Both the position numbers and the translations under genes were made by a program. This document shows, piece after piece, positions 675 through 52,163 of a DNA stretch of 58,631 nucleotides. The stretch covers positions 669,620-728,250 of the forward strand of contig KB722752.1 in NCBI GenBank assembly GCA_000349905.1, in the 5' to 3' direction. Below the pieces are notes generated by a model. That model did no database searches. It was not told where the DNA came from and saw nothing but the letters and a program-made list of their open reading frames with translations. How positions within the stretch are numbered: position 1 is the first letter of the stretch; each line of letters starts with the position of its first letter. Source of the DNA: Volvariella volvacea V23. Lineage: Eukaryota > Basidiomycota > Agaricomycetes > Agaricales > Pluteaceae.

Positions 675-1164
675 ATGACCACCCATTACTCCGCCTGTAA
701 CAATTCTAGGATTAGCAACACAGGTGGTAGCATGATCACCACCGTTGGATCCCATAACACAGTCAATGGAAATAATTACAGTGGAATGCGTGTTTCTGGC
801 GATTATCACAGCAGTAATTATCACGGACGTGGTACGTTTATTTGTTCATGGAATTGGCGACGTCAACTCATTGATATCAGCTGAGGATAGACGGATCTAC
901 AACAATGGGGGTAACAACCAAGTCAACATGGATAACAGCAAAGGGAGCATGTTCAATAGTTCGTACTCAGAAGCAATTCGCACCCCTTTCTGTATTGATG
1001 CGCTCCAAGCTCATGCGACAGGTAATGCCACATCCAACGATGTGAACATGGAGCTGTTAGAGCACGTAAGACAGCTCAATCAACAACTCGACGATGCGAA
1101 TGAAAAGATTGAGAGACTAAATGACATAATTGATGAGTACGAGAGGAGGTTTGGTAAAATATAG
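675..1164 (+). CDS. NGG-module protein 1 (Asn/Gly-rich motif plus coiled coil)
   Basis: Spliced model 675-831, 881-958, 1022-1164, 125 aa. Both introns have GT and AG ends, and the exon junctions are phase 1. Exon A (residues 1-52) is rich in Asn, Gly and Ser, with the core SRISNTGGSMITTVGSHNTV, then a Tyr/His-rich stretch. Exon B (26 codons) carries DRRIYNNGGNNQVNMDNSKG. Exon C encodes a coiled coil of about 35 residues (MELLEHVRQLNQQLDDANEK and on) and ends the protein. There is no signal peptide or catalytic motif. It shares its exon plan with the next gene and with the 40-52 kb minus-strand cluster. The A and B exons look like short imperfect beta-solenoid or amyloid-type repeats; that is inference. 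The start is the first ATG of exon A, as in the paralogues. Confidence 0.75.
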
Positions 1165-1575: not shown

Positions 1576-2063
1576 ATGTGTTCCACTGGAAATTATTCCA
1601 CCTTCAACAACTCGATCATCGACAACGAGGGCAACAATGTGGTCCCTCATGCTAGCCTGCAAGCAATCGCTCACGGAAACGATTATCGAGGAATGCAGAT
1701 TCCTAATAGTTACCGCAGAGATAGCTATCACAGACATGGTAGGTCCAGACTACTCACAGTATGAGCAGCAAAAACTCATGGTTATCAGCTTGGGACAGAC
1801 GAATCATCAACAATGGTGGTACGAATCAGATCAATATGGACAATAGCAGGGGAAGTATGTACATAGGTGCGTAGCAATCTACTTGTACATATATGTTCAC
1901 CGACACTCCCCAAGGTCACAGTGTGAGGGAGAGGGACATGCATATGGAGTTGTTGGAACGAGTGAGAAACCTCAACCAAGAACTCGACGATGCCGATGTG
2001 GAAATCTCCAGACTGGTTAAAGTCAGAGAGTATGAGAGAAGGCATGGTAAGATGCGGTTATAA
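1576..2063 (+). CDS. NGG-module protein 2 (tandem paralogue of protein 1)
   Basis: Spliced model 1576-1738, 1789-1866, 1915-2063, 129 aa, with all junctions in phase 1. Exon A reads STFNNSIIDNEGNNVV and then GNDYRGMQIPNSYRRDSYH, matching the gene just upstream in layout. Exon B (26 codons) carries DRRIINNGGTNQINMDNSRG. Exon C gives a short coiled coil starting MELLERVRNLNQELDDADVE and ending in a basic tail. Its coiled coil and exon B are closest to NGG protein 1, 410 bases upstream in the same orientation, so the two look like a tandem duplication. Function is unknown; Asn/Gly-motif-mediated assembly is inferred. Confidence 0.72.
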
Positions 2064-24079: not shown

Positions 24080-24370
24080 TGTTTGGTCATATTTGTTGCA
24101 TGATTATATCANNNNNNNNNNNNNNNNNNNNNNNNNNNNNNNNNNNNNNNNNNNNNNNNNNNNNNNNNNNNNNNNNNNNNNNNNNNNNNNNNNNNNNNNN
24201 NNNNNNNNNNNATAACCTTCATGTATATAAGGCTTGTCCCTCTGGGTTTCGCTCCCCAGATCAATCAATTTTGTCTCTTAAACTGATACCACCATCATCT
24301 GAGTATGCTCAACCCCAGCATGGTGACTCTTCTCCTGCAAGATTCCTTGTTAGTCGGTTGTCCCGTAACA
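24080..24370 (-). mobile_element. LTR-like insertion inside LINE ORF2, with assembly gap
   Basis: The segment splits the reverse transcriptase between ALNRVL and MENCDILSKQGF. On the minus strand it begins TGTTACGGGACAAC and ends ACCAAACA, as LTRs do (TG...CA). The part 24212-24370 aligns base by base, with few changes, to 58307-58470 on the other strand. A 100-base run of N (24112-24211) hides the middle. No target duplication was seen. Confidence 0.7.
24112..24211. other. Assembly gap (100 N)
   Basis: A round 100-base run of N, so the true length is unknown; it lies in repetitive LTR sequence, a usual cause of scaffold gaps. Confidence 0.99.
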
Positions 24371-26200: not shown

Positions 26201-26677
26201 TGTTACGACGATGAGTAATCGTCATCTTCAGCTAGTGTGCTTTCGGACTATCGGACTCATTTTCTCTTTCGAGTAGTTACAACTTCTTTCGGTAACTACA
26301 ATAGCATTCCTCCATTCAGAAGTATACGCGCGTCCATAGCTTACGCGTCCATAGCTTACACGTCCATAGCTTACGCGTACAAATGACTCGAGTACAGCAT
26401 TTCCTTTCATAGCTACAACATAATACCACAGAACGTATAAATACTTCAATTCTTTAGCGTAGAACTTTAGCTTGACCTCCTGTACTTTCTCTATATTCAC
26501 TTCGTACTTCGCTGTGTGAATTATATCTCGACGTATCTCACAAACGCCTTTGACGACGGATCGACTCAACATTCCATTGGCCCCAATCATCCTCATCATC
26601 TTACTCGTCTATAATTCTAGGGTGTATCCGCACCTTCGAGTTACTGATCGACGCGTTAAGGTAACGTCACCGTAACA
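26201..26677 (+). mobile_element. Solo LTR A inside LINE ORF1
   Basis: 477 bases from TGTTACGACG to CCGTAACA, flanked by the 5-bp duplication CTCGC (26196-26200 and 26678-26682). The first bases hold a small hairpin, GACGATGAGTAATCGTC. It is about 85-90 percent identical by eye to LTR B in the opposite orientation. The 123-codon frame inside is a by-product. Confidence 0.88.
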
Positions 26678-28505
26678 CTCGCAGGTCCAACCTTAGACCA
26701 TCCGTCCACCTCGTCGGCCGGGGTTATGTCAAAACCATCCCGGTTCGTATCTACTTCCATGTCGTCCTTGGCTTTCTCTTTTTGCTTGTCAACCTTAGAC
26801 GCCTTCATGGCAGTTTTTCTTTCGGCCGCCGCTTTTTTGAGGATCGAACGCAGTTCCCATACGTCGTGTCTATTGATGAAACACGGGCACTCGTGGGAGT
26901 CGGCTGTGTGGGCTCCGTTGCAGTTAATGCATTTCGGGGGTTGCTTGTCATAGGCCGGGCTGTGTCGATTAGCAGAGTGGAGACCGGCACAGATCCTGCA
27001 AGAAATCACGGTCGCACGGCACGGGGTCCATGCCACGTGTCCCCATCGGGAGCACTTCGTGCAAAATAGTGCTCGCGCTTTAAATCTTCTCTTGAGGATA
27101 GTGCTGATCTCATCATGGATGAGAACGCACGTTCCGTCAAGCTTATTATGGTCTCCACCGAACTCTACGATATTGAAGGCGAGCATAAACGTGAACTCAC
27201 CTCTACCTATGAAGGTCGGCGGGGATACGAAGATTTTGTCTGACAGGCTCTTGTTGAGCTTCAGGGTAGTCATCAATTGATCAGGGGTGTACGTCCTACC
27301 AGAAGGGTCAGTCTTGTTAGTGGAAGTTGTGACGTACGCTGTATTTTGAATCTTCGTCGTAGCAGCGAAGAAGTTTGCGTATTTGGGGTTCTTGTCAAAC
27401 TTCTTAGAGTAGTCGGCAGCCAGTTCGTTGTAGGATTCTAATATTTTCCTCATGGCATTCTGATTGGACGCCCGGACCACAAGATGCTTAGGGCTTTCGT
27501 CCACGATCATGTGTTCTGGGTCGGTCATAAGTATGGCCTCTTTCTTTGCCAGGAGGAGGGTAGAGATCACTTCAACATGTACGGGGTCGTTGGTGACGAT
27601 TCGTATGACGACGGTAAGAGAAGAGAAGGTCGTCGACGTGTTTTTATCATGGAAAACTGTACGGTCGTCCTTCTTGGGTGTCTTCTCGGATTTCTGTGGC
27701 ATGGGCACCCAAGTTTTCGGCTTCGGGGTCAGGGGGACCGTGGCGCCTCTCGCAATCACTTGCGCGAAAGAGGGTTTGGTCTGTTTGGTTTGGGTCTGGG
27801 GGGGTGACACATGAGAAGTTTGTTGTCGGTTTTCAGGTTTCTGTGTCGCAACCGGAGGGCGTCCGTTGTCCGTTGTCGCATGGTTCGCTACTGGTCAGGG
27901 GGGTGGTGGAGGGACGATGATACTTGACGGCGGGTTCTTTTTCTGAGGTACGGTATCATTTGCGGGTACGGGGGGAGGGGAGGGCGATGATGTTTTAGGT
28001 GCGGTTGGCTGATTTGCATCGATGTCGATAGGATTTATCGTGGTCCCCGTCGCCATTGTGTTGACAATCTGCACTTGGAACTTGCGCGGAAGGTGGGCTG
28101 TTGCGTGCATAACCCTGTCATATGAGTCCATGACGATCGAGGTTTCGTGAATTGAGTATGTCAGCTTCGTTGGAATATTGGATGTCGAGGCCTTCTGTTC
28201 CGGCAGCCATTGGGCTACCATACATTGGACAACCTGATGTGGTTCAGGCTTCCCTGTCACATCGATTTCATTTATTTTCTTTCCCTTCATCGTAGCCGCC
28301 CATACTTGAGGGAGGGAGGGCTGGAGGGGGTCTTTCTTCCAAGTATTCGCGTAACCATACTTGGAGTAAAACTGGCAAGACCACTTTTTCCATTCTCGCG
28401 TAAGCGTCTTGCCATCTTGCGCACCTGCAAACGACATATAATCCCTATGAATGTAATTACAGGTTCTGTCAGTAGCTCGCACAGATGCTTCTATCTGGAC
28501 CGTTC

Positions 28506-28983
28506 TGTTACGACGACGTTACCTTAACGCGTCGACTAATATTTCGAAGTACGATAGTACTTCTTAGATTTTAATTGAGTAAGATGATGAGGATGATTGT
28601 GGCCAACAGAATGTTGAGTCGATCCGTCGTCAAAGGCGTTAATGAGATAAGTCGATATTGGATTCGCACAGTGAAGTACGAGAGAAATATAAGGGAAGAA
28701 ACAGGAGGTCAAGCTAAAGTTCTACGCTAAAGAAGTGAAGTATTTATACGTTCTGTGATATTAAGTTGTAGCTGTGAAAGGAAATGCTGTACTTGAGTCA
28801 TTTGTACGCGTAAGTCATGGACGCGTAAGCTATGGACGCGTAAGCTATGGACACGCGTATACTACTGAATGGAGGAATGCTATTGTAGTTACCGAAAGAA
28901 GTTGTAACTACTCGAAAGAGAAAATGAGTCCGATAGTCCGAAAGCACACTAGCTGAAGATGACGATTACTCATCGTCATAACA
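28506..28983 (-). mobile_element. Solo LTR B inside LINE ORF1
   Basis: 478 bases, the same family as LTR A but inverted, ending in TGTTACGACG and CATAACA. Flanks share GTTC (28502-28505 and 28984-28987), consistent with a 5-bp duplication that lost one base. It cuts ORF1 cleanly; removing it restores the frame. Confidence 0.85.
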
Positions 28984-32194: not shown

Positions 32195-34309
32195 CTAATC
32201 ATGGACGAGCAGGGACCGGCCGCTCATTTCTGTAAAAAAAGGTAAGTTGCATTCCTACAGATAAGCATCCCAACTAACCTTCGGGCTTGGACAACCCCTG
32301 CACAGCATTCAACTCACGTTAGCATGCTCAGTTCCGAAAAAGCACCACAATAACGTACCAAGATGTCCAAAATCGTAGGGGCCACATCACACAACGCCGG
32401 CGGATCCTGTTCCTCCTCAACCTCCTTAGCATCAGTCTTGTCCTTATCGGTCTTATCCTCCTCAAACTTGAACGTCTCCTTATCGCTGGCGATGATGAAG
32501 GGCACAGGATTAGTGGTGTGGGCGGTATGAGGTGCGCCCGTTTCGGGATTGATCATTTGTTCAGCATTCCCGTGGTCTGCGGTGATCGCGAGAACGTATC
32601 CATTCTTGATCGCCGCCTTGTAGATGATACCGACTGCCTCGTCCGTTGCGGTGACGCCCTTAACAGCAGCCTCGTAAACGCCGGTATGGCCAACCTATCG
32701 CATCATCAACACTCCACTCTTCCTTTTTGTCACGCGGCAAGAGAGCAACGTACCATGTCAGGAGGTGCAAAGTTGCACATCACGAATTCGTCTTCCTGCT
32801 TGTCTAGAATCTCAGCGACCTTCTTGGCCACTCCATGGGAGCTCATTTTGGGGTCGAGGTCATAAGTGGCAACTTTGGGGGATGGAATAAGGTAACGTTG
32901 TTCCCCTTCGAATTGCTTCTCCACTCCCCCATTGAAGAAGAACGTCACATGGGCATACTTTTCTGTCTCTGTACGAAAGCCGTTATGTCATCGGTTGGTG
33001 AATAAACACGAGGGGACTTACCTGCGACGTGAGCTTGCTTAATTCCTTCCTTCGACAACCACTCCGCAAGGACATTGGTCATCGCTAGCGGCGGATAAGC
33101 CACGGGGAAGGGGAATTCAGCGTTGTATCGCGTCATAGTGGTGATGTTCTGCACTGCAAGTAAGTAATATGGTAAGAAAATTTACGCGATCACGTACCAA
33201 ATCCTTTGGGATATCAATCTCAATAGGCTTATCGTCAAGACCGAATAGACTCGCGATTTCGCGCATACGGTCAGAGCGATAGTTGAAGAAGAAAAGCGTA
33301 TCGCCGTCTATTTGTTTGATAAGGGTTGGCCATTGAAGGTAAGAAAACGAGGAATTACCTTTAATTCTGCCGGCATCGCCGTTGACAATGATAGGCTTCA
33401 AGAATTCGTCGGTTACGTCCTTGTCGTAGTTGGCTTTGATGGCGCTTATAGCCCCTTGTTGACCTTCTTCCGCTGCCGTGGCCTCGCCTTCACCTCGAAC
33501 TAAACCCTCAACAGCGACCTTGACACGCTCCCAACGCTTGTCACGGTCCATGGCATAGTATCTACCGACGATAGTGGCCAATTCGCCATATTCCTCCTTT
33601 TTCAAGAAGTCTAACAGCTCTTCGCAGTACTTTGCCGATGATCGTGGTGCGGTATCTCGTCCATCACCAAAGAAGTGAACATAGGTATGAGGCACTCCAA
33701 CCTCTTTGGCGGTCTCGAGCAATGCGAATAAATGATTGATATGTGAATGGACGCCTCCGTCCGAAATCTACATGGATATGAGCAGCGGAAGAGCGAAAGG
33801 GGGTAATCGGAATGCCATGGTGGACTTACTAGGCCGAGCAAATGCAATCTACCATTTCCCTGTTTGGCCCGCTCGAAACTCTTCAGGATTGTCGGGTTTT
33901 TGTGGAGTTGTCGCTTTTTGATGGCAACATCGATCCGCACTATATCCTGCCACACGACCCGACCCGCCCCGATGTTGAGATGTCTGATCGACGAGAAGGC
34001 GAGATCGTCAATATGTTGTGGAGGTAAGATTGTCTTCATCTATCGCTACGCACCCAACCTCTGAGTTGCCCATCAAGCCTTCGCTAAGGCCTACGGAGGT
34101 TCCACTCGCAGAGATAAGCCGGTAAGCCCCCTCTTTGGCGATAGTGTCCATGTTGGTCGTGTCGGCGGCTTCGATGGCATTTCCTTTCTGGCCGGGCTTT
34201 GTTGCGACGCCCCACCCATCGTGAACACTGCCAAGAGCTCAGCGAGCTTGGAGAAGGAGAGAAAGCGGAGCACTTGCATCAAGCAGACCTTGTTCTTGAC
34301 CTGAACCAT
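32195..34309 (-). CDS. gpmI: 2,3-bisphosphoglycerate-independent phosphoglycerate mutase
   Basis: Ten exons: 34309-34278, 34227-34054, 33983-33830, 33767-33359, 33307-33198, 33148-33022, 32968-32754, 32694-32359, 32297-32279, 32229-32195; 536 aa, the usual family length. It interconverts 3- and 2-phosphoglycerate in glycolysis, in the cytosol, using two metal ions and a phosphoserine intermediate. Visible motifs: IVHDGWGVA at the N-terminus, active-site Ser in [56 protein letters not shown] and [10 protein letters not shown]. All metal and substrate residues expected for the alkaline-phosphatase superfamily fold appear present. Intron 1 has a GC donor (GCAAGT) instead of GT. Exon 9 is only 19 bases. 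The start at [11 protein letters not shown] fits family N-termini. Confidence 0.96.
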
Positions 34310-39065: not shown

Positions 39066-39914
39066 CTAATACTGCAGCACATTGACTTGATTGTATACGT
39101 TATAGTCCCCCGTAATCGTGTTAAACTTCACATCACTCATGGTGGCACCAGAAAAGTCGAAATAGGTCCTAGGCGATCTGGTGTCCCTTTCGCGGACCTT
39201 CTTGGTGCTGCTTTTCCGTGACGGCAAAGCCCCACTTTGTTTCTCTAAAAGGAGGGGATTTACGTCCTCCACAAGTCGTTTGAGAGTTTGGTCAATCTCT
39301 GTGACTGTATCTTGTACTTCGTTAATCGCAATGTAGGAGCGGATCTGTGGAATATCAACCGGTTAGATTAGATTAGTGTGCAAGCACCAGATGGCATTGC
39401 TCACCCCCAACAGGTCTAATTGGAATTTCAATCTTTGTCGGAACTCATCAATCCGAGTGGCGTCCTGATCGCCATGTACAATACGGAAGAGCCTTCCTCT
39501 TCCTTCTAGCGTTTTCAAGTACGAAATTATTTCGTCTAATAATCTGAATTTCCGTAAGTCTCGAGTGGATTGATCCCTTCACCTGGTACTCACATATAAA
39601 TTTGCTCATAAGAGTCCTCAAAGCTTTCGTTCCGAGCCTTGGATTTATATAATCTCTGAATCTCGTGAAAGATTCGAGTCACCTCCAACGCCAAATTTCG
39701 GATCGCTGTCTTGTTATATTTTGCTTTCTACGTAACCGCAGTGAGGGCTAATCGGATGATATCGCCTGCAGGTACGTACCTCAGCGATCTCAATGATTAC
39801 GACACCCAACGCCGCTACACGTTCTAGATATGGAATTAGTGCGTCTGCAGCCTGTAAAGCAAGTTTGGTTGCGCTGACGATGGTGTCTGCGGTTCGGTAT
39901 GTGGGCTTTTTCAT
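39066..39914 (-). CDS. MLKL/HeLo-like helical-bundle protein with a C-terminal Asn/Gly-type motif
   Basis: Four exons: 39914-39780, 39727-39594, 39543-39405, 39344-39066; 228 aa. Residues about 10-170 are all-helical with the spacing of the MLKL N-terminal (HeLo-like) domain common in Agaricomycetes: LALQAADALIPYLERVAALG, IIEIAEKAKYNKTAIRNLAL, IFHEIQRLYKS, ISYLKTLEGRGRLFRIVHGD and DEFRQRLKFQLDLLG. In characterised proteins such bundles permeabilise membranes during cell death. After a basic linker (PSRKSSTKKVRERDTRSPRT) the protein ends with DFSGATMSDVKFNTITGDYN and VYNQVN, which matches the exon-A motif of the neighbouring NGG genes in style and spacing. The order bundle, linker, C-terminal motif is that of HET-s and HELLP effectors. 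No kinase domain follows. Domain assignment is by recognition; the death role is inferred. Confidence 0.8.
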
Positions 39915-40170
39915 GTGTGTAATCACTACGCGAGGTTTCTACGTTCCTTAAAATACTCTCTGTTTGGGCGGTGCTGAGCAAAAATTAAATGGAATGCAGT
40001 GGAGCACTGGTACAGTACAGGGTAATGCGAGAGCAAGAGAATGGTGAGGATTGGGTGAGGACGCAAAGTGTTAGGAAAGTAGTGTAGGCTGTAAAGTCTT
40101 GTATTTGAAGTGCTGTACGCGGCTGTGCTGTACTATGACAGCAAGACACCAAGTATGGGTAATCTAATTA

Positions 40171-41002
40171 TCACCTCCATCTAGGCTTGCTCTTTGACCC
40201 ACTGGCTCCGTGTTTTCGCTCATCACCAGTTCCTGACCGGGAGGCTGTTGACCTCACCTTGGATGCTGTTTGAGGGTTGTCAACTCGTGGGACCTGGACG
40301 CTTATATGACTTGGTGGCTGTGCCCTACTCTCTCTTCGCGTGCACCTGCCGCCCAATGGCTTCGTGCCAACGCCCTTTGCCTTGTGCTCTGCATCAGCTA
40401 ACTCAGTTATAGGTGGCTGCGTAGGATTAGGGGCATCTGCTGCCGCACAAAGGGAGGGCCATTGTATCATTGTCGGCCACAACGTTGCAGCAAATGCTCA
40501 CCTGTCAGAGGACGTGTGGGCATGCCAACACCCTGTTCATTGTCCGAATCGAATGCAGGTGGCGTATCTTGACAAGTATGTCAGATTTAATACATATCGA
40601 TTAATGCTTCACTGACAGTGATATGGGCCCTCTCGGTTTCTATGAGCTGCTCTTTCACTAGACTTATGCGGAATATCTGGTATTGCTGTTTCAAGCTGGG
40701 CTCCTTGATATTCAGGGTGACTCACCATGATTCATAGCTCTGTTGCCTCTTCCACCTATAATGTTGCCGTTTCCCGCGGTGGTGTTATAGAAACTGTCTA
40801 TACAACCTAAGTCAGTATTGATCAATTCCGCACTATAGGACTGACCCCCATCATGATAGTTCTTGTGGGATTCAGGAAGGTTAGTCGTATGAGTGGTGTG
40901 CCCGTGATACGTGTAATTGCTGGTTGGATTGCGTTGATTACCGCCGATGGAGATGACGGGTGAGTTTGTGAAATTGTTGGTTTGTATGCCTGCACTAAAC
41001 AT
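40171..41002 (-). CDS. NGG-module protein 5, Ser/Pro-rich tail
   Basis: Exons 41002-40846, 40797-40726, 40685-40617, 40567-40502, 40439-40171; 210 aa, all introns in phase 1. (Number 4 is not used.) Exon A: IQTNNFTNSPVISIGGNQRN, then Thr/His-rich. Exon B (24 codons): DSFYNTTAGNGNIIGGRGNR, the second B subtype. The rest is disordered: HKSSERAAHRN, AFDSDNEQGVGMPTRPLTAD, and a basic Ser-rich end. No coiled coil. It is the first NGG gene downstream (in cluster order) of the MLKL-like gene, same strand, 257 bases away. The start MFSAG is the ATG directly before the motif. Confidence 0.7.
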
Positions 41003-41418
41003 GAGAGACAATCGCAAAAGCTATCGAGTTTTCAGTGCTGTGAGGGGAACAGGAACATCGAGTATTCCCAAAATACTGTGCTGTGTAGTGGTTAACACGG
41101 GGACATGCCGTCTTCGTTTTGCATGAGGCGATCGCCGATGCCCATCAATCAATAAGAAACGAGGACATATTCAACAATTTGCATAATTTCGAACAATTTT
41201 TCCGAATCAGGTGATGCAGGAGCGAAATCATTATAAAAAAAGGCTATGCACAACTTCTATTATAGGGATGGGGACCGCCATTTCCGAGCAATCGACGCCA
41301 ATTAAGATACAGCGATTTGAGGGTTAGAGTACTCAATAACGGGTAGCTTATCCAGATTACTACCTGATCTAAAGTACCCCAGCACCACGACAGAGGATAT
41401 CGCTCTCCTTGAAGACTG

Positions 41419-41896
41419 CTATGCCATTTCGTACGACCGAATTATCTCGCGCAGTCTATCAATTTCGTCTTTCGCCTTATCAAGCTCTCTATTGGCCCTG
41501 GCAAGTGCTCTGGTAAGTTGCGTGACTTGTTCCCGCAAGTCCAGATCCACATCTTCGGCTTGTGGCACTCGAAACCTGCTACCTGTAGTCGTGTTAGCGC
41601 TGGCACATAATGCATCCATGTCCTACTGACCGTCGGCCATAGTTCCCCTGGCATTGTCGAAGTTCATTTGATTAACTCCACCGTTGTTAGTGATTCGTCT
41701 GTCCTGAGCTGTGGGATATGGGTTATCTTCATCGTATCGGCAATCCAGATGGAGGACTCGGATACGCACCATTTCCATCATAGCGATTCTTGCGAACGTT
41801 GGCGTGCCGGTAGTCTTTTTCTGTGTTCGGACCGAAATTGACTCTCCCATTGGCACCGTTGCCAAAGTTCTCGAATCTGCCGGAGTTGGTTGTCAT
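41419..41896 (-). CDS. NGG-module protein 6, coiled-coil tail
   Basis: Exons 41896-41770, 41708-41631 and 41582-41419; 122 aa, phase-1 junctions. Exon A begins MTTNSGRFENFGNGANGRVN, then charged. Exon B (26 codons) holds DRRITNNGGVNQMNFDNARG. Exon C gives a coiled coil (DLREQVTQLTRALARANREL, then DKAKDEIDRLREIIRSYEMA at the C-terminus). It has the same three-exon design as NGG proteins 1 and 2, some 40 kb away on the other strand, and ends in the same kind of Arg/Glu-rich helix. Confidence 0.75.
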
Positions 41897-43043
41897 AATG
41901 AGTTGGAGTTACTTGTACTGAACACCGTTCATGCTCTTATGCCTGGTTATATACTTACGCACAGCGATTTAATCTTATTTGTACTTCCGTAGTTAGAAGA
42001 AAAGCTGTTGACAAGAGCGTGAGAAGTTGCCTGGTCAGCTGGTAGCAGCGATCCATGTTCTGGCAATGCAGTTTGACAATTCGACAGGCAGTGCACACAA
42101 GGGAAAGGGTCTACGAATAAGTTACAACACCTGTGTATGATATGCACAATAGGTTTTGCATAACTTCACTTTCGCCTTGTTTACCGAGGCAGAAGATTAA
42201 ATGGCCTGCTGGATCGTAGCAGGACTACGAGAAAATTTAACAAATTGTCAAGGTGACAAACCAGATCTCAACTGTGTACTGGATCGAGCCTCGGCTCCAC
42301 ATATACACAAAGCTGATTGCATCGGAGGTTGCACCTGTCCGCGGTTGTTACCTCGATTTTGTCACATGTGAACTCTTGCCGCCCACATACCGATAAGGAC
42401 AGTTTCTGACGAAAGCCCAATGGGGTTCTTGTCATGGAGTATGCATGGGATCAAAGATCAAAGTCGTGAGGTAATAATAATTCCTCATGGAGCACAACAA
42501 GCACGCATCCTTGGATGCCTAAAGTTCATGTGATGGTATGCAAGCCCGAGGTAGGGGCGCAGGCATTGCCTCATTGTAAAGCAGTTTGAGAAAAGTATCA
42601 ATGGATGAGATCCTATACACGACCTAGACCAGAGGTGGGGAATGTGCATACGATCATCTATTCGGCAGCTGTTGTTGACTATAGAATGATCGAACGCGGT
42701 GTCTTGTGTATTTGCGTCTTTCACAGTAGTCAGTACCATGTCGAGCTTGGTTCTGGGCAGAAGTTCGTGGTTGAATGCATGTAGAAGACTTGCGATACCG
42801 GACGAACTGATGCACGCTTCATTTAACGTAGCGCACACACTGAACCTCACTATATACGCATGTAATCGATGCATGTTCCCGTTCTTTAAAGGGCAGTAGA
42901 AAACGAACATAGTGAGGCCATTCCCGAGTATTTGACGGATAATATAGTATTAATATTGTATGGACATCGCGTGGAAAGGACATATGGATGGTATGTACAT
43001 CGTTTTGTCGTGTGGTATCTCATTAGCGGCGTTCGTATCCTCG
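41897..43043. other. Unassigned stretch between family genes
   Basis: A 141-codon frame (42485-42910, minus) overlaps a 66-codon plus frame; neither shows a domain or family motif. Probably intergenic. Confidence 0.4.
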
Positions 43044-43643
43044 TTACCGGCCATGTTGTGTTTGAGTTCTCCCACCACCCATTATAAAGGTAAAATAACT
43101 CCATATCCTACTTATAAAACTACCCGAATTCTGGCTGGAATTGGAAGCTTGGGCGAAGGGGGGTTCAGGCGGAGGGACATTGAGAGGATCCTCTGGGTAT
43201 CGTATCAGTTGGCCATCGATAATGCAGTCAAAGACGTGAGTCGCATACCAGTATTCGATGTTGGTCCGGGGTTACGCCTCCTTGGTTGGGGCCCATAACC
43301 ATCTAAGCAGATCATACATGTTACATGCTAAGCTGAATAAGATTATGAACACTTACCCCCATACATATACCCTGTCGAGCTATCATAGTTCATCTGATTA
43401 TTTCCACCAGTATTATAGATCCGCCTGTCTTGGGCTATAGAGAATAAGTAAACTCTACGGGGAAGTATGAATGAGGGACAAACAGTATGGATGATAGTTG
43501 CTCTCGTGGTATTCCGGTGAATGTATATTGCGATGCTCGCCTTCGTTGATGGTGACATTCGACGGACCAGCGTTGTTGAAGATTTTCCCGCCATTCGTAT
43601 TATGGACAGTCGCGTTGGAGAAGAACGAGGAGTTTCCAGTCAT
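43044..43643 (-). CDS. NGG-module protein 7, Pro-rich and hydrophobic tail
   Basis: Exons 43643-43484, 43434-43357, 43302-43249, 43192-43044; 146 aa, all phase 1. Exon A is the clearest family motif: SSFFSNATVHNTNGGKIFNN, then AGPSNVTINEG. Exon B: DRRIYNTGGNNQMNYDSSTG. The following exons are Pro/Arg-rich (YGPQPRRRNPGPTSNTG, DPLNVPPPEPPFAQASNSS), and the last holds a hydrophobic, aromatic helix (SGSFISRIWSYFTFIMGGGR), perhaps a membrane-binding tail. So it carries a coiled-coil-type B module but no coiled coil. Confidence 0.74.
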
Positions 43644-43987
43644 AGCGGGAGAAGGGTGATGGTCTGCAAGCACGCCTGTTGATGCCGTACTTATACAATC
43701 AAAGACTTGTAAGCATTCAACATGGGCACGCACCCTACATGCAGGGTCTTTCCAGCATAACACTTCAAGGTGATGACAAGTGCTGTGCTTTGTCTCGACG
43801 GAGGTGGTATAAAAGGCATGCGTTCCTGTGCTGTGCTTGCCAACGGGGTACAATAAACCTCGGAGGACGGGATAATGCAAGCCAAAAGGGGCACTGCCAT
43901 CAGTAAACAGATCCAAACGGTGTCAGATTTCTCGCTATTCGCCACGGATATGCTACAAATGCTACGATACAACCGATAGAATGACAA

Positions 43988-44801
43988 TCAAGAGATAATA
44001 CACTGATTTTTCCCATTCGTTGCATTTGAATTGTCCAAATCCCTTTCCCTCTCCTCAAACTTCGTCTTCAGCACCTTTATATCCTCCGCCATCGCGTCCA
44101 TTTTCTTGTTCATCTCGTGCAATAGCTCGATGAGTACATCCTCATTCATTCTACCACTTGTCTGTTTAGAGGCATCCGTCAGATTTTGGAGGGAATCCCG
44201 AGGTGGATATTTCTCAGATACTAGACTCTCAGGTGAACGAGGTCGGTCATGTGAATAGGGGGCAGTTTTACCACCTGCTTGCGTGTATGAGCGTGAGACT
44301 CGTGGGTAGGCACCCTAGGGAGGCTAAACTTACGAGATCCAGAAGAGCCTCTGGATGGCAAGGGATCTGTGTGGCGGCGCGGTGCCACCTCTGAATCTGC
44401 CTTGTTCGCATCTGTTATTCTAATTCAGTGTGCAGTATGGGTTAACGAACGACTCCAGTTACCTCCATGAATGGTGCCGTTACTGTTATCCATATTGACT
44501 TGGTTATTTCCGCCATGATTCTCAACCCGACGATCCACACCTGCAGCACATAAGTTGTTCGTATGAGTTCGAAAAGATGGAGCGTACTTTGTCGACCCCA
44601 AAAGGTGGCATTCTCGCTATGGACCACGGGAATTGATGATTTGGGGGAGTTTGTGATATATTGTGTCGTTGTTTCGTAATGGTTCCCGTCAATGGTCTTC
44701 ATACCCCCACCAAATGTGATTCGTTGTCTAGACCCGGTGAATACATGAATACCTAAGAAGGTGTAAGTGAACGGCGAATTTATAGAGTAAGCGCACTCAC
44801 C
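43988..44801 (-). CDS. NGG-module protein 8, coiled coil and C-terminal CaaX box; 5' end open
   Basis: Exons 44752-44597, 44540-44463, 44411-44334 and 44274-43988 join in frame; a short upstream exon ends at 44801 (ESKQKAG) but its start was not found. Exon A: IHVFTGSRQRITFGGGMKTI, then DGNHYETTTQ. Exon B (26 codons): DRRVENHGGNNQVNMDNSNG. Then a basic, Ser-rich linker (APRRHTDPLPSRGSSGS) and a coiled coil (VLIELLHEMNKKMDAMAEDI and on). The protein ends ...NGKNQCIIS, a textbook CaaX box (Cys, two aliphatics, Ser), which predicts farnesylation and membrane attachment. No other member shows this. Confidence 0.7.
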
Positions 44802-45124
44802 AGCTTTCTGTTTGGATTCGGAGGCTTAAGGAAGGCCGTATCAGATAGAGGAATAAAGCTCAAAAAAAGCACCTGCCCGGCATAACGTGAATGGAGTGAG
44901 TTTGATTCCTCGTCAGGTAAAGTTTATGGCTTGGTCGGTGTCAGTTCAGGAAACACAAGAAGAGAAGGACTTGAGTTGTTAGGGAGTTGGTGCTGTGAGA
45001 GCGAAGACGTGTTTTTTTGTTATGTTGTCCGTTCCAATTCCTAGAAATATATATGACAGCACCGTAGGGTGAGATCCGCATAGGTAACGCAGAGCCTCGA
45101 TACAGATCAATCGAGGAAGAAGAT

Positions 45125-45550
45125 TCAGCGCGATTCCTGGCGCTCGGGCTGCCAGGTCAATCCGAGGATTGTGAGGAGACCAAAGATTGATAGCGTGCCT
45201 ACAAGATGCTGTACAGTCCTGTTGTCGTAGACAATATTATCGACACAAGAATTGCCAGAAATGCTGTGGGGTCGATGATACTCCATTGTCAAAGTCTTTG
45301 TTGTGCACGTCCCCTTGCTCCGCCTGACGACGCCAACCCTGGTGTCGGTTTCAATTCGAAGCAACACAAAAGCCACTTTTTGTCCGCCGATTTGACATAC
45401 TGTACGAGGCTCGTATGTGTGTCCACTATGTGGGCGCAATGTCGTGATGGAGAACAACAATGAGTGATGAGGCTGACACGGGTGCAGATAGAGTACAAGA
45501 CCACCCAAATTGGGCGAGTGACGATCATTCCCCCCTTTTTTGGAAAGCAT
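45125..45550 (-). CDS. Possible small protein with C-terminal hydrophobic helix
   Basis: A 141-codon frame within the cluster. The C-terminal part, NSCVDNIVYDNRTVQ followed by HLVGTLSIFGLLTILGLTW, gives one likely membrane helix and a charged end. No splice support and no clear family motif; it may be a decayed cluster member or a chance frame. Confidence 0.25.
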   Translation of the reverse strand: MLSKKGGNDRHSPNLGGLVLYLHPCQPHHSLLFSITTLRPHSGHTYEPRTVCQIGGQKVAFVLLRIETDTRVGVVRRSKGTCTTKTLTMEYHRPHSISGNSCVDNIVYDNRTVQHLVGTLSIFGLLTILGLTWQPERQESR

Positions 45551-45942
45551 TGATATCGTCCAACGGTATCCTTAGCCCGAAGGCATTTTAGTTTGTAGGT
45601 CCAGGTTTTATTCCTTTTGGCGTACCCCTATGATAATCCTGTTCGCGAGCAAAGTTGGCGTTAGCTACAGCTTTTTTTTCTGATGGATCGGGTTGCCATC
45701 AGAAGGGACAGAACAAATTCATACTTGCACAGCTCGTGAAAGCACACAAGGACGCTTCGTAAGCCCATCGCCAGGCCTCGTGTGAGAGTCGTGCGTTGCC
45801 TCATTCTCCGGCAGGTGCATATTATGACACCATTTGATCTAATATCCACAAAAAATACCTACACCACCATTTGCGGATATCTAAAAGTGATATTCTGTTT
45901 AAATAATACAAGCCATTGCAGCGACATATTGGATACATAATG

Positions 45943-46810
45943 TCAATCTTTGGGTGACTTCCTCCGCATGCGGCCAAGGCGCACGCTGCTACTGACGTTG
46001 GCCTCCACGCTCGCTTGGGCTCTACCTCCAAACTGAACCTCCTCTCTCGACTCCGCGTTTGTTTTTTGACGGCGGTTACTTGGACTGTTGTTCGGCGGAG
46101 GAGAAGGAGGTTCCTCGTCTAATTCCTGTGAGTTATCACTATAGTACTCCTCATTATCTTCTGGCGAGCCCTGTTGCCTTCGCGGTTGAGCCGAATAAGC
46201 ATTGCTTTGAGCACGAGGTGGTGGGCCATGAGGTGGACGGACGGGTTGGCACTCAAAGCCACGAGGGGGTGCTGGCGGGCGCCTGGAATAATGTTGGGGA
46301 TTATATTGTTGAGGGGGTGGCCTTTCATAGTATCCGTAATCGTCATCGTCATCGTACTCCTCGTCCTCGGGATACCGATCGGCATATACTTGACGTCTAG
46401 GCCTCGGTGGTGGTGGGTGGCGCTGGCGATTGCGGATCGCTGCAGCTGCAGCGCTATCTGTAGTGGAATTCATACGTGAGACGAAGTGAAGTATCGATAA
46501 GTCAACTTACCACCATATATTGCATTTCCTTGACCCCCAACTATATTGTTTGCACCTGAAAAGTTTCCGCTGTAGATAGCTAACGACCGGACATAGGTAT
46601 TTGACACCAGGGTGTTTGAAGGAACGTACTCTGTGATCCACCATACGAGGCGTATCCATTATGATGCTGTTCATAGCGGTTGCGGGAAAAGTCGCGATGA
46701 TCGTAATAATCACTTTGGTGATAGTTGCCCTCAACGTTGTTGACGTTGCCGCCAACGTGAATGCCACGGGCGTTATTGAACCAGTTTGCTTCTGCGTATC
46801 GATGGTAAGC
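45943..46810 (-). CDS. NGG-module protein 9, acidic Pro-rich tail; start unresolved
   Basis: Exons 46810-46630, 46579-46511 and 46457-45943 give one frame of 254 codons; a 5' exon with ATG probably lies above 46810 but could not be joined in phase. Exon A holds ANWFNNARGIHVGGNVNNVE, then GNYHQSDYYDHRDFSRNRYE. Exon B (23 codons): TIYSGNFSGANNIVGGQGNA. The tail is low-complexity: poly-Ala, Pro/Arg-rich, a run of Asp/Glu/Tyr (DEEYDDDDDYGYYERPPPQQ), more Pro/Gln, and a basic C-terminus (RLGRMRRKSPKD). Such tails often drive phase separation or scaffold binding; no function is known. Confidence 0.7.
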
Positions 46811-48552
46811 CTGAGTACGTAGACCGGGAATGGGAGCTCACGTCTGCTTGCCATAGGACTAAGTGGTTGAGGAAGAGGAGGAAAGGGCGACTGTCAGCAC
46901 GATCACTGCCATCGCCTTTGTACTATACAATTGTCACGCATCACAAACACCTCGCCACCACCCTCATGAAAGCTGTAATCGGTCACAAAGGGAATGTGAC
47001 TGATGGGAGTTGAAAAGGAATACAAAGGGGATGAAAGTCAGTTTGAAATCGCTGCAGCCACAAGACGTATATTTCAAAGTCGAGGACCTGCAATTCGTTT
47101 GTGGGTACCTTGGTTGGAGGGGATGAGTCATGATTGGTTCAATGCTCTGCCTTAGTTTGGCACTGTTTGGGTGCCGAGAGATAGCAAGTTGTCCTGTGGG
47201 TGATCTTCCTTCTCTTCGTCGTACTTCGCCGCTGGCGGGCATGGAGGTGGACAGGCCTCACGTTGTGGCGGTCTACATAGGCTATTCTGTCACCTTGATC
47301 GCCAGAGATAGGAGAGTGCAGACAATTCGACTTGGATTAAGGATAGTCCAGCCGAAGTGGGTCTCCTTGTGCTTCTTCACTGCCAAGGTATCTAGTGTGT
47401 TTCCATCATAATTGGTTGAATGCTAGATGTTATCTATTATGCTGGCGTACTAAAAGGAACTTGTTTTACGCACCGCGAAATACGGTTCATGTCTTTGATC
47501 GTTGTTCCTATTACCCCGGTACGCGGTCGCCTTGAACATCGCTCATGTTATGAACAATAGCGTTGCGAACTTGTACGATTGGGTGCTTATAATTAATCTC
47601 AGGGCATATGTGCGGCTGAGTATTACATGCATCTTCTTGCCATCAGAACGAGTGGATAATGCGCGGTTGAAGTGAGTGGTTAATGATGAGATTACTGATG
47701 AAGAGCACTGGACTTCGCTTTATGTATAGTATAGGTTCGTCCTTAAACCCTCTACTCACTTAGAGAATGAATTTCGAAGTCTTCGTACGATGCTAATGAA
47801 GTACACAAATGCAAGCAATGCTCCAAAGTCGACAAGTCGCAAGGCGAATCATATGAATGTCATATACAGTAGTGACTCTGAAAAGTGATGACAAAAGGAC
47901 ACGTTTCTGACTGTTACTTTCTTCAGTAAGTTCTACCACTCCAGCGCCTCGATCATACGCCCACAATTGGCTCATTTCGGTAAAGGAGCAATATGCACCC
48001 CCGTTATGGATCCGAATCACTACCTACACTTAACACGGCGACGTACTAAATAATTGTGATATTCCACCTTCCTTTTCCTATTAAGAGGTAGGAGATGGTC
48101 TACTATTAGCAGTACCTTGACATGTTTAATTTTATCCCTCTCTATGTAGGTTCCAATGACCACTAGCATATTGTTGACAACCAGGAAAGGCATTTCTGCG
48201 ATCCTGGATGAAGGTTCCTGATGCATTTCTAGAGCTTTCTCATTATTTGTATGACGTACCACAAAATTAAGAAACCTCATTGTCCAATATCCGAGACAGA
48301 ACGCCTGCTTCAGTCTATGGTATAGTGTCCTTGATCATTAATTTCTCGTGTCCTTACGAGGTAGAACGCGTGTAACACACATGAATTAGGGACCATGTGT
48401 TTGAATCCAATATTCCATAGACGCACATGCACCATCATGATAGGAAACTCGCAAAATCGAACGGAAGAATTAGAGGCACTCGGAAACGAACTTTTCGATA
48501 GCATGCGAACTACACACGAGGAGCTAGGAGCTATGTCGAAATATACTACCCA
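46811..48552. other. Mostly unassigned; possible decayed NGG exon and a short plus-strand exon
   Basis: On the minus strand just below 48020, after an AG, the frame IRIHNGGAYCSFTEMS resembles exon B (RRIYNNGGNNQVNMDNS) and could be a relic of a family member. On the plus strand 48437-48568 reads a 43-residue helical segment (SQNRTEELEALGNELFDSMR) that looks like a terminal exon, but no upstream exon was found. Confidence 0.3.
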
Positions 48553-49213
48553 TTATACTGCTCCCTGATCACCACCATTCCTCTTCGACTTCACAGGTAC
48601 ACGTTGTATCCCTTGGTCAAGCTGACCAACCGGTTCCCCTAATTTCTGAGCTTCCGTACTTTCTGCATTACTATCAACTAACCCTGCATTCAAGTTTGAA
48701 ACTCGGAATAGCCCTTCATTCAAATTTGATGGCTTAGCCTGTTGATGACTAGGGGCACAGTTTTCTTTTATATCAAGGACGTGGGGGTATTCCCGTGGAA
48801 GCTCCTCCGGGCTCTTGCTATCGCCACGTTCCTCACTATCTTCATGATGTGAATCAGGATCGGGTTGGTGTTGGCGTGAATGTACCCGAGACGAGGTTCT
48901 ATCACGACGACTGTGGACTACGGAGCTTGTGGGTCCTGCAACTTTCCACAAAACGAATCAGACGTACTTTGGATATTGTTTCCCTTGCCACCTACAATAT
49001 AGCCTTCCCCAGAGAAGTGGCCACTATAAATTTCAACTATACTAAAATAAGGTCGATGGAACGCGTGCAACAGCCGTTTGACTTACCTTGGCTATTGCCT
49101 TCATGATAATCGAGTTTATTAACGTTGATGGTAGAGGTACTCGTTCGATTTATGACTCCTCCGTGAACTACAACCGATCCGGGTTGATGGAAGAAATAGG
49201 AATTGCTGGTCAT
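48553..49213 (-). CDS. NGG-module protein 10, disordered tail; B-C junction irregular
   Basis: Exons 49213-49087 and 49036-48968 are convincing; the tail exon is 48553 to about 48935. Exon A: MTSNSYFFHQPGSVVVHGGV, then INRTSTSTINVNKLDYHEGN. Exon B (23 codons): EIYSGHFSGEGYIVGGKGNN. The tail (SSVVHSRRDRTSSRVHSRQH, then acidic, Ser-rich and repeated NLN motifs) is disordered. The only donor after exon B, GTACGT at 48967, and the AG of TTGCAG give an intron of 32 bases that is out of frame; the in-frame alternative is 26 bases. So this copy is either mis-sequenced, spliced unusually or frameshifted. Confidence 0.55.
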
Positions 49214-49708
49214 AATAAAACTAAAGAACACCTACAAGCAGTGTGGTAGAAGTGGGGGTAAGTAAGGCAAAACCTTTCAATTAAGCACAACGAGACGAAC
49301 CCGTGTGGACAAGCTGCCCATATCTCATCATGCATGCCCGTACACAACGAGGTCGCGGGAGGAAATTTTTTGACAGGTGTGCCCGATCAAATCCTGGTGG
49401 ATAGGCAACGAGCACTTGAATGTCATGTTCCGCTATGGGATGGCTGAGATACCCCGATTGGGCGTGGTCAGCTGGTCATGGCACTTGTAGACACGAAGCC
49501 TTGAGGATGAAGCACGAATATGGACAAAACCATTGGGGGGAGCGAATATGGGCGTTTCGAGATCTGGGGCACACGGATTGACTGGAGGAGTGATGCAAAC
49601 ATCAGTCGGGAACGTTGCCGCCAGACAACTAGTCTATTCGAGCGTCCAATCTGCAGGTAAACGAATCAGAACACCAATTTAGAAGCTCGTGGGATGGCAC
49701 AAGTCCTC

Positions 49709-49851
49709 ACTCGTCTGCTATATTTTCCGGTATGAAGTAGGTGGAGTTTGGTCGTACGGGAGCACGCCATCTCGATATCACTCGTCTGCTATATTTTCCG
49801 GTATGAAGTAGGTGGAGTTTGGTCGTACGGGAGCACGCCATCTCGATATCA
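49709..49851. repeat. 71-bp tandem duplication
   Basis: A 71-base unit starting ACTCGTCTGCTATATTTTCC is present twice head-to-tail with no visible difference, between NGG genes 10 and 11; nothing else was recognised in 49214-50219. Confidence 0.9.
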
Positions 49852-50219
49852 GAAATATATCAGGCATGGCGCCTATCACCAGCTTTCAGATGTTAGCTTG
49901 ATATTATCGAGATCAGAGCACACACGAACAAACAAACCCGCAAACTAGCGAGATAGCTGGGCCGTTGTTTGTAGCTTGGACTTGGTGCCTTTCATATACG
50001 GAAGCAGAATTCATTCCTTAAGGTAGTGAAATACTCTATTGCGAGCAAGGATGCGCATTGCAATAGCGCAGGCCTCGTGCAGTAAGTTGGGCTCCCTCAA
50101 TTCGTTTCAGAGTCCTCATCTTCCACTGCTGCTGTCCTGTGCTTGTTTACTGTTCTCGAAGGATGAATTTCGGCGTCTGCGGTATTCACACTATAGAGTC
50201 CGCTTCTATCCTCCCTCCG

Positions 50220-50840
50220 TCATGTCTCCCTTTTATCATGCCTGACGTATTGACGAGCGCTATGATCTTCAGGAATTCGTGTGAATGGTCCTGGTAGGGA
50301 GTAGCCTCGTTGTATTTGTGTATGGATAGTGTGAATATAACCCGCCGTTGGTCGACGAGCGAGTGTTGCGTTGATTGGTTTGGGAACCATGGTTTGGTGC
50401 TGGATTGCTGCCTTGTGAAGGTAAGCGTGGGGGATAAGGTGGACCATACCCCAGTGGCGGACTATGTGCTGGGTACGCAGCAGGAGGTTGTGAGCTGGTG
50501 TCCTCTCTAGCCACTTGGTCTGATAACACGGTGAGTTCTCCTCTCGTTGTGTAGTGTCCTGATCTTTGTTGTGCATATGATTCAACTTCCCTCCAACCAT
50601 GTTGTTGCCGTCGTAATGTCCACTGTAGTGCGGCTATTACGAGTGTCAGTAGAAATGGTTAGGATTGCAGGCTTGGCTCACAATGCTGAATACCCAGATA
50701 GGGATTCTTGTTGTATCCTCCATATGCGTGTATGTAGATGCTTGTCCCCAGTGTAAGTTGCATTCAGTGTGCCAACGTTATTGATTATCTTGCCGCCCTT
50801 TGAGTTGTCGATATCTGCACCTTCAAAAAACGAGACGATA
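50220..50840 (-). CDS. NGG-module gene 11, probably damaged
   Basis: Exon A around 50830-50682 reads IVSFFEGADIDNSKGGKIIN, then NVGTLNATYTGDK, a clear family motif, but the codon where paralogues start (ATG two residues before SFF) reads ATC here and no other ATG was found. Exon B from 50622 reads GHYDGNNMVGGKLNHMHNK, the second B subtype, entered in phase 2 rather than the usual phase 1. The tail has two overlapping frames, one to 50220 and a Pro-rich one (YPAHSPPLGYGPPYPPRLPS) to 50269; the Pro-rich one resembles tails of NGG 9. I read it as a decaying copy or one whose 5' exon is hidden. Confidence 0.45.
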
Positions 50841-51866
50841 CTGGGGAGTGCCACCGCGGAGTTTTTCGACCCCCCCTTAGGTTATATTCACAGCCAAATA
50901 GCTGTAATAGACATGTCACCGAACGTGGAATCCATTTTAAAGAACTTATACAGATAACTTTGGATAGTTAATCTTAGGGAGCGTGATGCAACAACTATCG
51001 CTACAGATAGCCTGATCCTGAATGCATGCACACGAATTCGCGGAGGAACGTATCGCCACGAAAGGGACCTATGTAGAGAGTCAGCATCCTCCTTTATGGC
51101 TTATTGATTTATTTCTCAGTTACTCGAAATCCCTACAATCGGTACCGCAAAACAAATCCCTCTAAACAGAAGGATGGCGAGATAAGCGCCATACCGGCTA
51201 TCATTATTATCTATGGGCCCATATCAAAGATTCAGTATGAAGGAATGTCGCTGTCCCCTCCGACATGAACGGTGAATTACGAGGTATTAGGGTTCAACCC
51301 GATCTAGGTGAACGTTATCTTGGCGCTCATATGAACCAGTGACCTGGCCCACGGAGCGCTTGCATGCGGGAGTTCTTAACGTTATGATGGTTGCAGAGCG
51401 CAGATAGCGAGCACGTTTACACGAGGGGGCCGTGGCGGTGAAAGGGAACATACTAGACTACCGACCCGCGCTACGTTGCAGGGGTTGTTAGCACACCGGT
51501 ATGCGAACACCACGGATGTTACTCTAATCCTGGTCGGAATAAGTTGTATAGTAACTAAAACGACCTACCATGTAATTGTCAATCAGTTTTTCAAACGTGA
51601 AGATTGTGAGTTTCACATTCGTCGACATGATATCGTTCTATGCTTCATGGGAGTCCCGCTGCTTTCAAATATAAGCCATCAAACCAAACAGGCTATTCAA
51701 TAACGACCAAGGCGTTGAATACGCAAACGAGTATACAAATGCTATTGACCGCATAGAGGGGAGGAGCTAGACTGACGTGCATGGAACGTAAACACAGGAA
51801 GATTATAACCTTCCTAAGCGTAAATCATCAGAACGCTCTCGTCCCATAAACTGGTACACACCTCAT

Positions 51867-52163
51867 TCATTTCCCAGTCGCAGGTTTCTTTGCCTTCACA
51901 GAGCTATCCGCGGGGTTCGAATTGCTGAAAGCGAGATACGGAATACCATGAGTTGTGTTTATGGTCACTGAAGCGAAGACGTCTAAAAAGCAAATTAAAA
52001 TCGGATGGTCTGATAAATGTCAATACTCACACCGTGGATGAGGCATTGCAGTTGGAGGTAGGACAACGTCGCCACTAGCAACGGTGCACATGATGATGCC
52101 CGAATTACTGCTAACCGTGGCATTTTGAAAGAAGGAATTATTCGCGGTGGGCTGGGGACTCAT
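51867..52163 (-). CDS. NGG-module protein 12, minimal two-exon form
   Basis: Exons 52163-52031 and 51982-51867; 82 aa, phase 1, donor GTGAGT. Exon A: ANNSFFQNATVSSNSGIIMC, then TVASGDVVLPPTAMPHPR. The second exon reads YVFASVTINTTHGIPYLAFS, then a Lys-rich end; it may be a highly diverged B module. There is no coiled coil or long tail. An in-frame upstream extension from ATG 52313 (STWSTALLALPLWITVVVKS) would add a hydrophobic N-terminus, possible but unlike the paralogues. Confidence 0.58.

Follow-up and report, generated by a model that had tools for sequence, protein, structure and literature searches.

Clustered motif genes beside an MLKL-like gene in Volvariella volvacea: a likely new form of NLR amyloid death signalling, with a proposed mechanism

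Why should a cultivated mushroom carry a crowd of small genes, each bearing a short Asn/Gly-rich motif, beside a gene for a predicted membrane-perforating protein? The question is raised by a stretch of 58,631 nucleotides from the straw mushroom, Volvariella volvacea V23 (Agaricales, Pluteaceae; the window: C17:669620-728250, where C17 is contig KB722752.1, in a genome of 35.4 Mb in 54 contigs), which a first-pass annotation had flagged as a candidate for amyloid-type death signalling and which we judge to have been rightly placed in that class. At the level of sequence it is established that the genes are clustered, that the small proteins have a motif in common with the stretch preceding the NACHT domain of receptors, that a phase-1 intron follows the first motif module, and that two MLKL-like copies end in a conserved C-terminal motif. 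The cluster is real and well built, and it likely represents a new form of amyloid death signalling by NOD-like receptors (NLRs), the mechanism of which is proposed here. Specifically, the locus is read as encoding a predicted membrane-perforating, MLKL-like killer together with small proteins likely to relay an amyloid-type signal from NACHT receptors, a reading that we put at an even chance.

The test on which the first-pass annotation had staked its proposal was a search of NLRs for the small-gene motif, and this search provides evidence for a receptor connection. NACHT matches were scored for 88 out of 142 candidates, and flanking sequences were examined for 70 of these 88, the other 18 being left out of the counts. 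The starting profile was composed of seven small-gene first modules and included no receptor sequences, and 4549 peptides (antisense, downstream, and from the window outside the clusters) served as controls, a first run having used smaller controls. Without iteration, and at E<=0.1, the profile found a match ahead of NACHT at 17/70 loci as compared to 0/4549 controls. By the fourth search, following three rebuilds, the count rose to 30/70 NACHT loci against 1/4549 controls at the same threshold, and to 28/70 against 0/4549 at E<=0.001. With the last profile the motif is located 67-90 codon lengths (introns included) upstream of the NACHT match in 30/30 loci; further motif variants among the remaining receptor loci were recognized by eye and stand outside the counts.

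Splice joins were tried in 37 receptor genes, consisting of the 30 profile matches and 7 chosen by eye, using simple donor and acceptor rules. A splice solution leading into the NACHT frame was obtained in 20/37, and in 20/20 of these the solution was phase 1 only, a number that should not be taken as 20 independent facts, since the receptors are paralogues; 17/37 gave no splice solution, and 4/37 were readable without an intron. By these predicted joins, receptor genes and small genes carry the motif module on exons of one kind. The first-pass annotation had supposed that small adaptors stand here in place of NLRs, which does not hold for the genome as a whole: motif-bearing NACHT genes exist, and none is listed near the locus. 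The nearest NACHT match listed on C17 ends at 356295, >350 kb from the MLKL-like gene, and among the 88 candidates scored no adjacent receptor was found.

The genes of the locus, in window coordinates unless a contig is named, are the following.

39066..39914, minus strand: MLKL-like gene, copy 1; spliced model of 4 exons, 228 amino acids
39914-39780, 39727-39594, 39543-39405, 39344-39066, minus strand: exons of MLKL-like copy 1
39090..39173, minus strand: tail motif codons for PRTYFDFSGATMSDVKFNTITGDYNVYN, at the C-terminus of MLKL-like copy 1
40171..41002, minus strand: G2, type 2 motif gene; 5 exons, 206 amino acids; second module exon 40797-40726
41419..41896, minus strand: G3, type 1 motif gene; 3 exons, 122 amino acids, C-terminal coiled coil; second module exon 41708-41631
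43044..43643, minus strand: G4, type 1 motif gene; 4 exons, 146 amino acids; second module exon 43434-43357
43988..44883, minus strand: G5, type 1 motif gene; 5 exons, 197 amino acids; second module exon 44540-44463
45943..46854, minus strand: G6, type 2 motif gene; 4 exons, 252 amino acids; second module exon 46579-46511
48553..49213, minus strand: G7, type 2 motif gene; 3 exons, 192 amino acids; second module exon 49036-48968
50220..50881, minus strand: G8, type 2 motif gene; two modules seen, not joined in one frame
51867..52163, minus strand: G9, motif gene; 2 exons, 82 amino acids; first module only
675..1164, plus strand: S1, type 1 motif gene; 3 exons, 125 amino acids, C-terminal coiled coil
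1576..2063, plus strand: S2, type 1 motif gene; 3 exons, 129 amino acids
C17:629204-630021, coding from 630021 to 629204: second MLKL-like gene (copy 2), 79 kb from the window copy

All nine minus-strand genes that had been proposed between 39066 and 52163 are present, and the helical-bundle gene said to end in an Asn/Gly motif splices cleanly into its four exons, with introns of 52, 50 and 60 base pairs, all GT-AG. The claim of eight motif genes stands: six of the eight in 40171-52163 (G2-G7) have complete spliced models with GT-AG introns and G9 is also complete, G9 being without the usual second module and G8 being unjoined. Within these models the first exons of G5 (11 nucleotides, ahead of an atypical first module) and G6 (13 nucleotides) are uncertain, as is G7, whose second intron is just 32 base pairs. 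The limits first drawn around the locus proved too narrow, for S1 and S2 (675-2063), a further type-1 motif gene at ~512 kb on C17 (second module found by search, first module by eye) and the second MLKL-like gene all fall outside them. The matches found to DRRI-type motif genes (10 in one search, 11 in another) are all on C17, which also carries both MLKL-like copies, and we count this in favour of the proposed reading; a profile search of C17:627686-634500, around copy 2, returned no motif gene.

An open reading frame at 33117-33767 (minus strand) resembles, by eye, cofactor-independent phosphoglycerate mutase, an ordinary gene separating the two groups of motif genes; those at 21813-28518 (minus strand) look like a retrotransposon of the long interspersed nuclear element (LINE) type, with stretches resembling an endonuclease, a reverse transcriptase and RNase H, as judged by eye; and in the interval that separates G7 from G8, at about 49710-49860, a stretch of ~70 bases is repeated in tandem, two copies being present.

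Resolved models of the small genes follow a shared plan in which a first module near the N-terminus is followed by a second module exon and then by a variable C-terminus. The intron after the first module is phase 1 in 9/9 resolved window genes, a count in which the donor choice was guided by phase for G9 and G2, and in which GenBank models give the same first-module exon ends for S1, G3 and G4. The second module occupies a phase 1-1 exon, of 78 nucleotides in 5/5 type-1 window genes and of 69-72 nucleotides in the three resolved type-2 genes. First modules resemble type-1 second modules (0/400 shuffles as good) more than type-2 second modules (7/400). Strong C-terminal heptad periodicity is observed in 3/5 type-1 proteins examined (1-2/5000 shuffles), namely S1 (1/5000), G3 (2/5000) and P0002, a paralogue from strain WC 439; periodicity is weaker in G5 (134/5000), and the same test gave no coiled coil signal in S2 (3419/5000).

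The small proteins are taken to be relays because two modules, together with some coiled coils, suit the nucleation or extension of a seed. They could as well be brakes: motif-only caps or titrators of receptor seeds that would keep the cell from firing by accident, a part played in mammals by CARD-only and PYRIN-only proteins. Consistent with such a role are the finding that none of the five small proteins scanned (S1, G3, G4, G6 and G7) contains a Pfam domain above cut-off and the presence in the window of ten motif genes as compared to one MLKL-like gene, but the coiled coils found in several copies would suit a nucleator no less than a cap, and we consider this explanation unlikely while granting it real weight.

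The identification of the neighbouring protein as an MLKL-type bundle, which the first-pass annotation had also put forward, draws its support from the two MLKL-like copies taken together. Copy 2 has the same four-exon plan with its frame intact, and a profile of both copies searched against the PDB matches MLKL N-terminal domains in 7/14 listed sequences (E 0.006-0.087), these matches being colinear over profile positions 27-134 and aligned with the MLKL bundle; most of the remaining listed matches are designed helical proteins. Copy 1 on its own reaches an MLKL structure at E 1.3. The similarity of this gene to the MLKL N-terminal domain is, by these comparisons, weak but consistent, and homology is likely rather than proven. 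Elsewhere on the contig (L084, C17:510776-513853), the type-1 motif gene at ~512 kb lies downstream of a helical gene, at a distance of ~0.5 kb, possibly a second pairing of effector and motif gene, the frames of the two genes differing across a run of T. The helical gene was tried as a third bundle, having 24% identity to the MLKL-like pair, and is not counted because Pfam and PDB searches gave no confirmation.

The tails of the two MLKL-like copies have the form YFDFSGAT-S----FN---GD in common, and conservation of this motif, as had been claimed, is borne out: identity between copies is 14/22 residues in the tail and 54/156 in the bundle, so that the tail is the better kept of the two. The motif sits within the last exon, rather than on an exon of its own, and occurs once in each protein, with no pair of C-terminal repeats of the HRAM type. 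A search of six proteins, including both MLKL-like copies, with the HET-s prion-domain model listed no match at E<=10, a search limited by the HMMER filters, which drop weak matches to short motifs.

Does this tail belong with the motif of the receptors and small genes? Our answer relies on a position-fixed test, since a hand choice of receptor motifs is biased. The test window, 380-180 bases upstream of NACHT, was set from the small-gene matches and not from the tails; five other windows, along with shuffled queries, served for comparison. The first module of G4 scored z 11 (0/200 shuffles), and the second modules of S1 and G4 scored z 4.4 (0/200) and z 2.4 (14/800), respectively. The tail of copy 2 scored z 4.7 (0/800), that of the window copy a modest z 2.2 (22/800), and two pieces of the MLKL bundle and a linker piece scored z about 0. 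Consistent with this result, the copy 2 tail matches small-gene first modules (8/3000 shuffles). Sixteen receptor motifs hand-picked after the tails had been viewed gave 3/2000 shuffles for the window tail and 1/2000 for that of copy 2, and were set aside; in the same comparison the 30 profile-derived receptor motifs gave 921 and 9, respectively. When profiles were compared, the values out of 2000 for the window tail and the copy 2 tail, respectively, were 71 and 5 with the hand-picked set, 962 and 1 with the iterated profile, and 268 and 6 with the first-module profile. Taken together, these comparisons point to a good connection between tail and receptor motif for copy 2; that of the window copy, whose own tail match is modest, depends in large part on the relationship between the two copies.

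Several results weigh against the proposed connection of receptor, relay and killer. Firstly, no NACHT match is listed within the window (with 88/142 candidates scored and NB-ARC not searched). Secondly, several results concern the bundle. Copy 1 alone scores 13.8 bits against Pfam MLKL_N, for which the cut-off is 27 (E 0.039-0.041), MLKL_N is not among the matches listed for copy 2, and a genome search with MLKL_N recovered neither copy. In the PDB search with the two-copy profile a designed coiled-coil protein ranks first (E 0.005), and no homologue of the MLKL-like protein was found at E<=0.1 among 474 candidates. A structure model made from a single sequence (P0003, a WC 439 protein) has a mean predicted local distance difference test score (pLDDT) of 46, with bundle helices at ~52-77, and the 50 matches listed in a structural search with it are generic helical bundles; from a model of this quality, the lack of MLKL among the matches listed excludes nothing. 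Thirdly, not every module matches. In the positional test the first module of G5 (148/200) and the second module of G6 (94/200) do not match the receptor position. The window tail does not match first (1015/3000 shuffles), type-1 second (708) or type-2 second (320) modules, and the copy 2 tail does not match second modules of either set (1333 and 663 of 3000); the claim of one motif pattern holds well among the small genes and receptors, and the match of the window tail to the small-gene modules is, taken alone, not significant. When the receptor set was built from G6 as its sole seed, giving 6 sequences of which one is probably spurious, the window tail gave 86/2000 and the copy 2 tail 182/2000, and in this set-up scores of z 3 or more were obtained for 2/150 random control peptides, one of them at z 7.8. 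Finally, relatives of the small proteins were found in V. volvacea only (2/7 and 2/2439 candidates), with none outside the species.

A different explanation holds that the motif serves basidiomycete NLRs in folding or docking, without any amyloid character, and that the MLKL-like gene is an unrelated neighbour. The window tail, which matches the receptor motif modestly and none of the small-gene modules, would be expected under this explanation, and the amyloid character of the motif is itself a prediction; moreover, the shortest motifs published for the NLR05/08/22/29/44 group mostly failed beta-arch prediction, which was passed by 28% of NLR05 and 0 NLR44 instances in the available text of the basidiomycete survey (Wojciechowski et al., 2022; PMC9815663), a point that also tells against amyloid signalling here. 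Against the explanation stand the matches of the copy 2 tail both to the receptor position and to the small-gene first modules, and the retention of the tail at the C-terminus, as on the effectors of known systems (PMC5485727, as far as its available text extends). On balance we find it improbable.

Comparison with a second strain, WC 439, bears upon the integrity of the small genes. G4 is 100% identical to GenBank protein P0004 (146 amino acids), S1 corresponds to P0001 with a listed identity of 98% (the final model differs at 1/125 positions), and G3 shows five residue differences, counted by eye. P0003 (AX16_010976) is a fused model, combining portions of G3 and of G2 with exons 1-3 of the MLKL-like gene, that reads into intron 3 and thereby loses the tail motif; as a result, the effector would escape surveys built on annotated proteins. 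P0002 (AX16_009054) finds its best match in the V23 genome at 59% identity over the first module and reaches 73% identity over one short piece. It is without a close counterpart there, a difference in gene content between the strains. Such change would suit allorecognition, a claim that we do not make on two genomes, one of which is represented by a few proteins. Between S1 and S2 the proportions of synonymous (pS) and replacement (pN) differences are 0.79 and 0.31, respectively, the corresponding values for the second-module exon being 0.84 and 0.16; with synonymous sites near saturation and replacements restrained, the two genes look constrained beyond chance. The idea that the small genes are remains or side products of NLRs, that is, 5' receptor exons without NACHT multiplied by chance near an MLKL-like gene, could draw on the first module and phase-1 intron held in common with NACHT genes and on the unjoined frame of G8, but it is already weakened, and in our estimation very improbable, given that the genes are intact, have several exons and possess separate C-terminal exons, and given the restrained replacements, with near-saturated synonymous change, between S1 and S2 and the preservation of S1 and G4 in WC 439 at 98-100%.

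How does the proposed relay from receptor to killer compare with systems already described? The closest likeness is to the basidiomycete MLKL-like (BaMLKL) proteins and the associated NLR05/08/22/29/44 motif group, carried in a single strain by dozens of NLRs (Wojciechowski et al., 2022; PMC9815663). As in that group, the bundle, here probably, is of MLKL type with a C-terminal motif, the N-terminal motif is found on dozens of NLRs per genome (here 30/70), a G[DN] pair is located near the motif end, and there is no adjacent NLR. In the available text of that article, motifs common to NLRs and to MLKL- or HeLo-type C-termini are described in some species, no motif partner is reported adjoining MLKL-like genes, motif-like fragments are noted for only a few BaMLKL sequences out of 500 and for none of the neighbouring NLRs, and the closest receptor-HeLo pair on one contig is 95 kb apart; Volvariella is absent from its main text. 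In contrast to that survey, the available account of which is confined to receptors and effectors, motif proteins that are not NLRs cluster here with the effector. The HET-S/NWD2 and related HET-s pairs of ascomycetes likewise combine a C-terminal motif on the effector with an N-terminal motif on the receptor, and the two-module small proteins with their linker recall the two HET-s repeats; unlike those pairs, the locus described here has a single effector motif that may not fit the HET-s signature, no adjacent receptor and an extra third component (PMC5485727, available text). The HELLP system resembles it in having an MLKL-related bundle under amyloid control, here proposed, and differs in its PP or RHIM-like motif, the motif here being Asn/Gly-rich; motif-only partners, present here, do not figure in the available HELLP account (PMC5485727). 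In the literature searched, which covered few subscription journals and included the available text of PMC7889193, PMC12881547, PMC8229728 and PMC4986451, no description of motif-only partners beside MLKL-like genes was found, and the matches listed for Volvariella with NLR or heterokaryon incompatibility contained nothing relevant.

Outside the fungi, the adaptors of animal inflammasomes offer a parallel. Adaptors of the ASC type are small proteins with two assembly modules, standing between receptor and executioner. The two-module proteins of V. volvacea may occupy a like position, an analogy for which no homology is claimed, the modules of ASC being death-fold domains and those here short motifs. 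A division of labour like that of ASC, in which the first module would meet the receptor and the second the MLKL tail, was considered and received no support from sequence comparison.

In the mechanism that we propose, a receptor encoded elsewhere would detect a trigger and oligomerise, whereupon its N-terminal motif would stack as a beta-solenoid-like seed. The small proteins, most of which have two modules and several of which have a coiled coil, would join and extend this seed, the tail of the MLKL-like protein would be templated onto it, and the bundle would then go into the membrane. The parts probably match the logic of fungal amyloid signalling, by analogy with systems in which the receptor bears an N-terminal motif and the executioner a C-terminal one (PMC5485727, available text). 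A broader proposal, tentative and in our view rather less apt to be right than wrong, is that mushrooms possess a third component of NLR amyloid signalling: a layer of fast-evolving, motif-only adaptors, encoded with phase-1 motif exons held in common with receptor genes and often tipped with coiled coils, that would link dozens of dispersed receptors to an adjoining MLKL-type executioner much as ASC does.

Amyloid signalling in basidiomycetes has so far rested on sequence hints, and the locus offers a concrete, small test case in a cultivated mushroom, in which candidate effector, relay proteins and receptors are all named. Differences between strains in the small genes make these genes candidates for a part in self/non-self recognition. 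More broadly, the locus suggests that fungi, like animals, may employ dedicated adaptors, and, if the relay serves many receptors, it would help to explain why receptor motifs in mushrooms far outnumber effector motifs.

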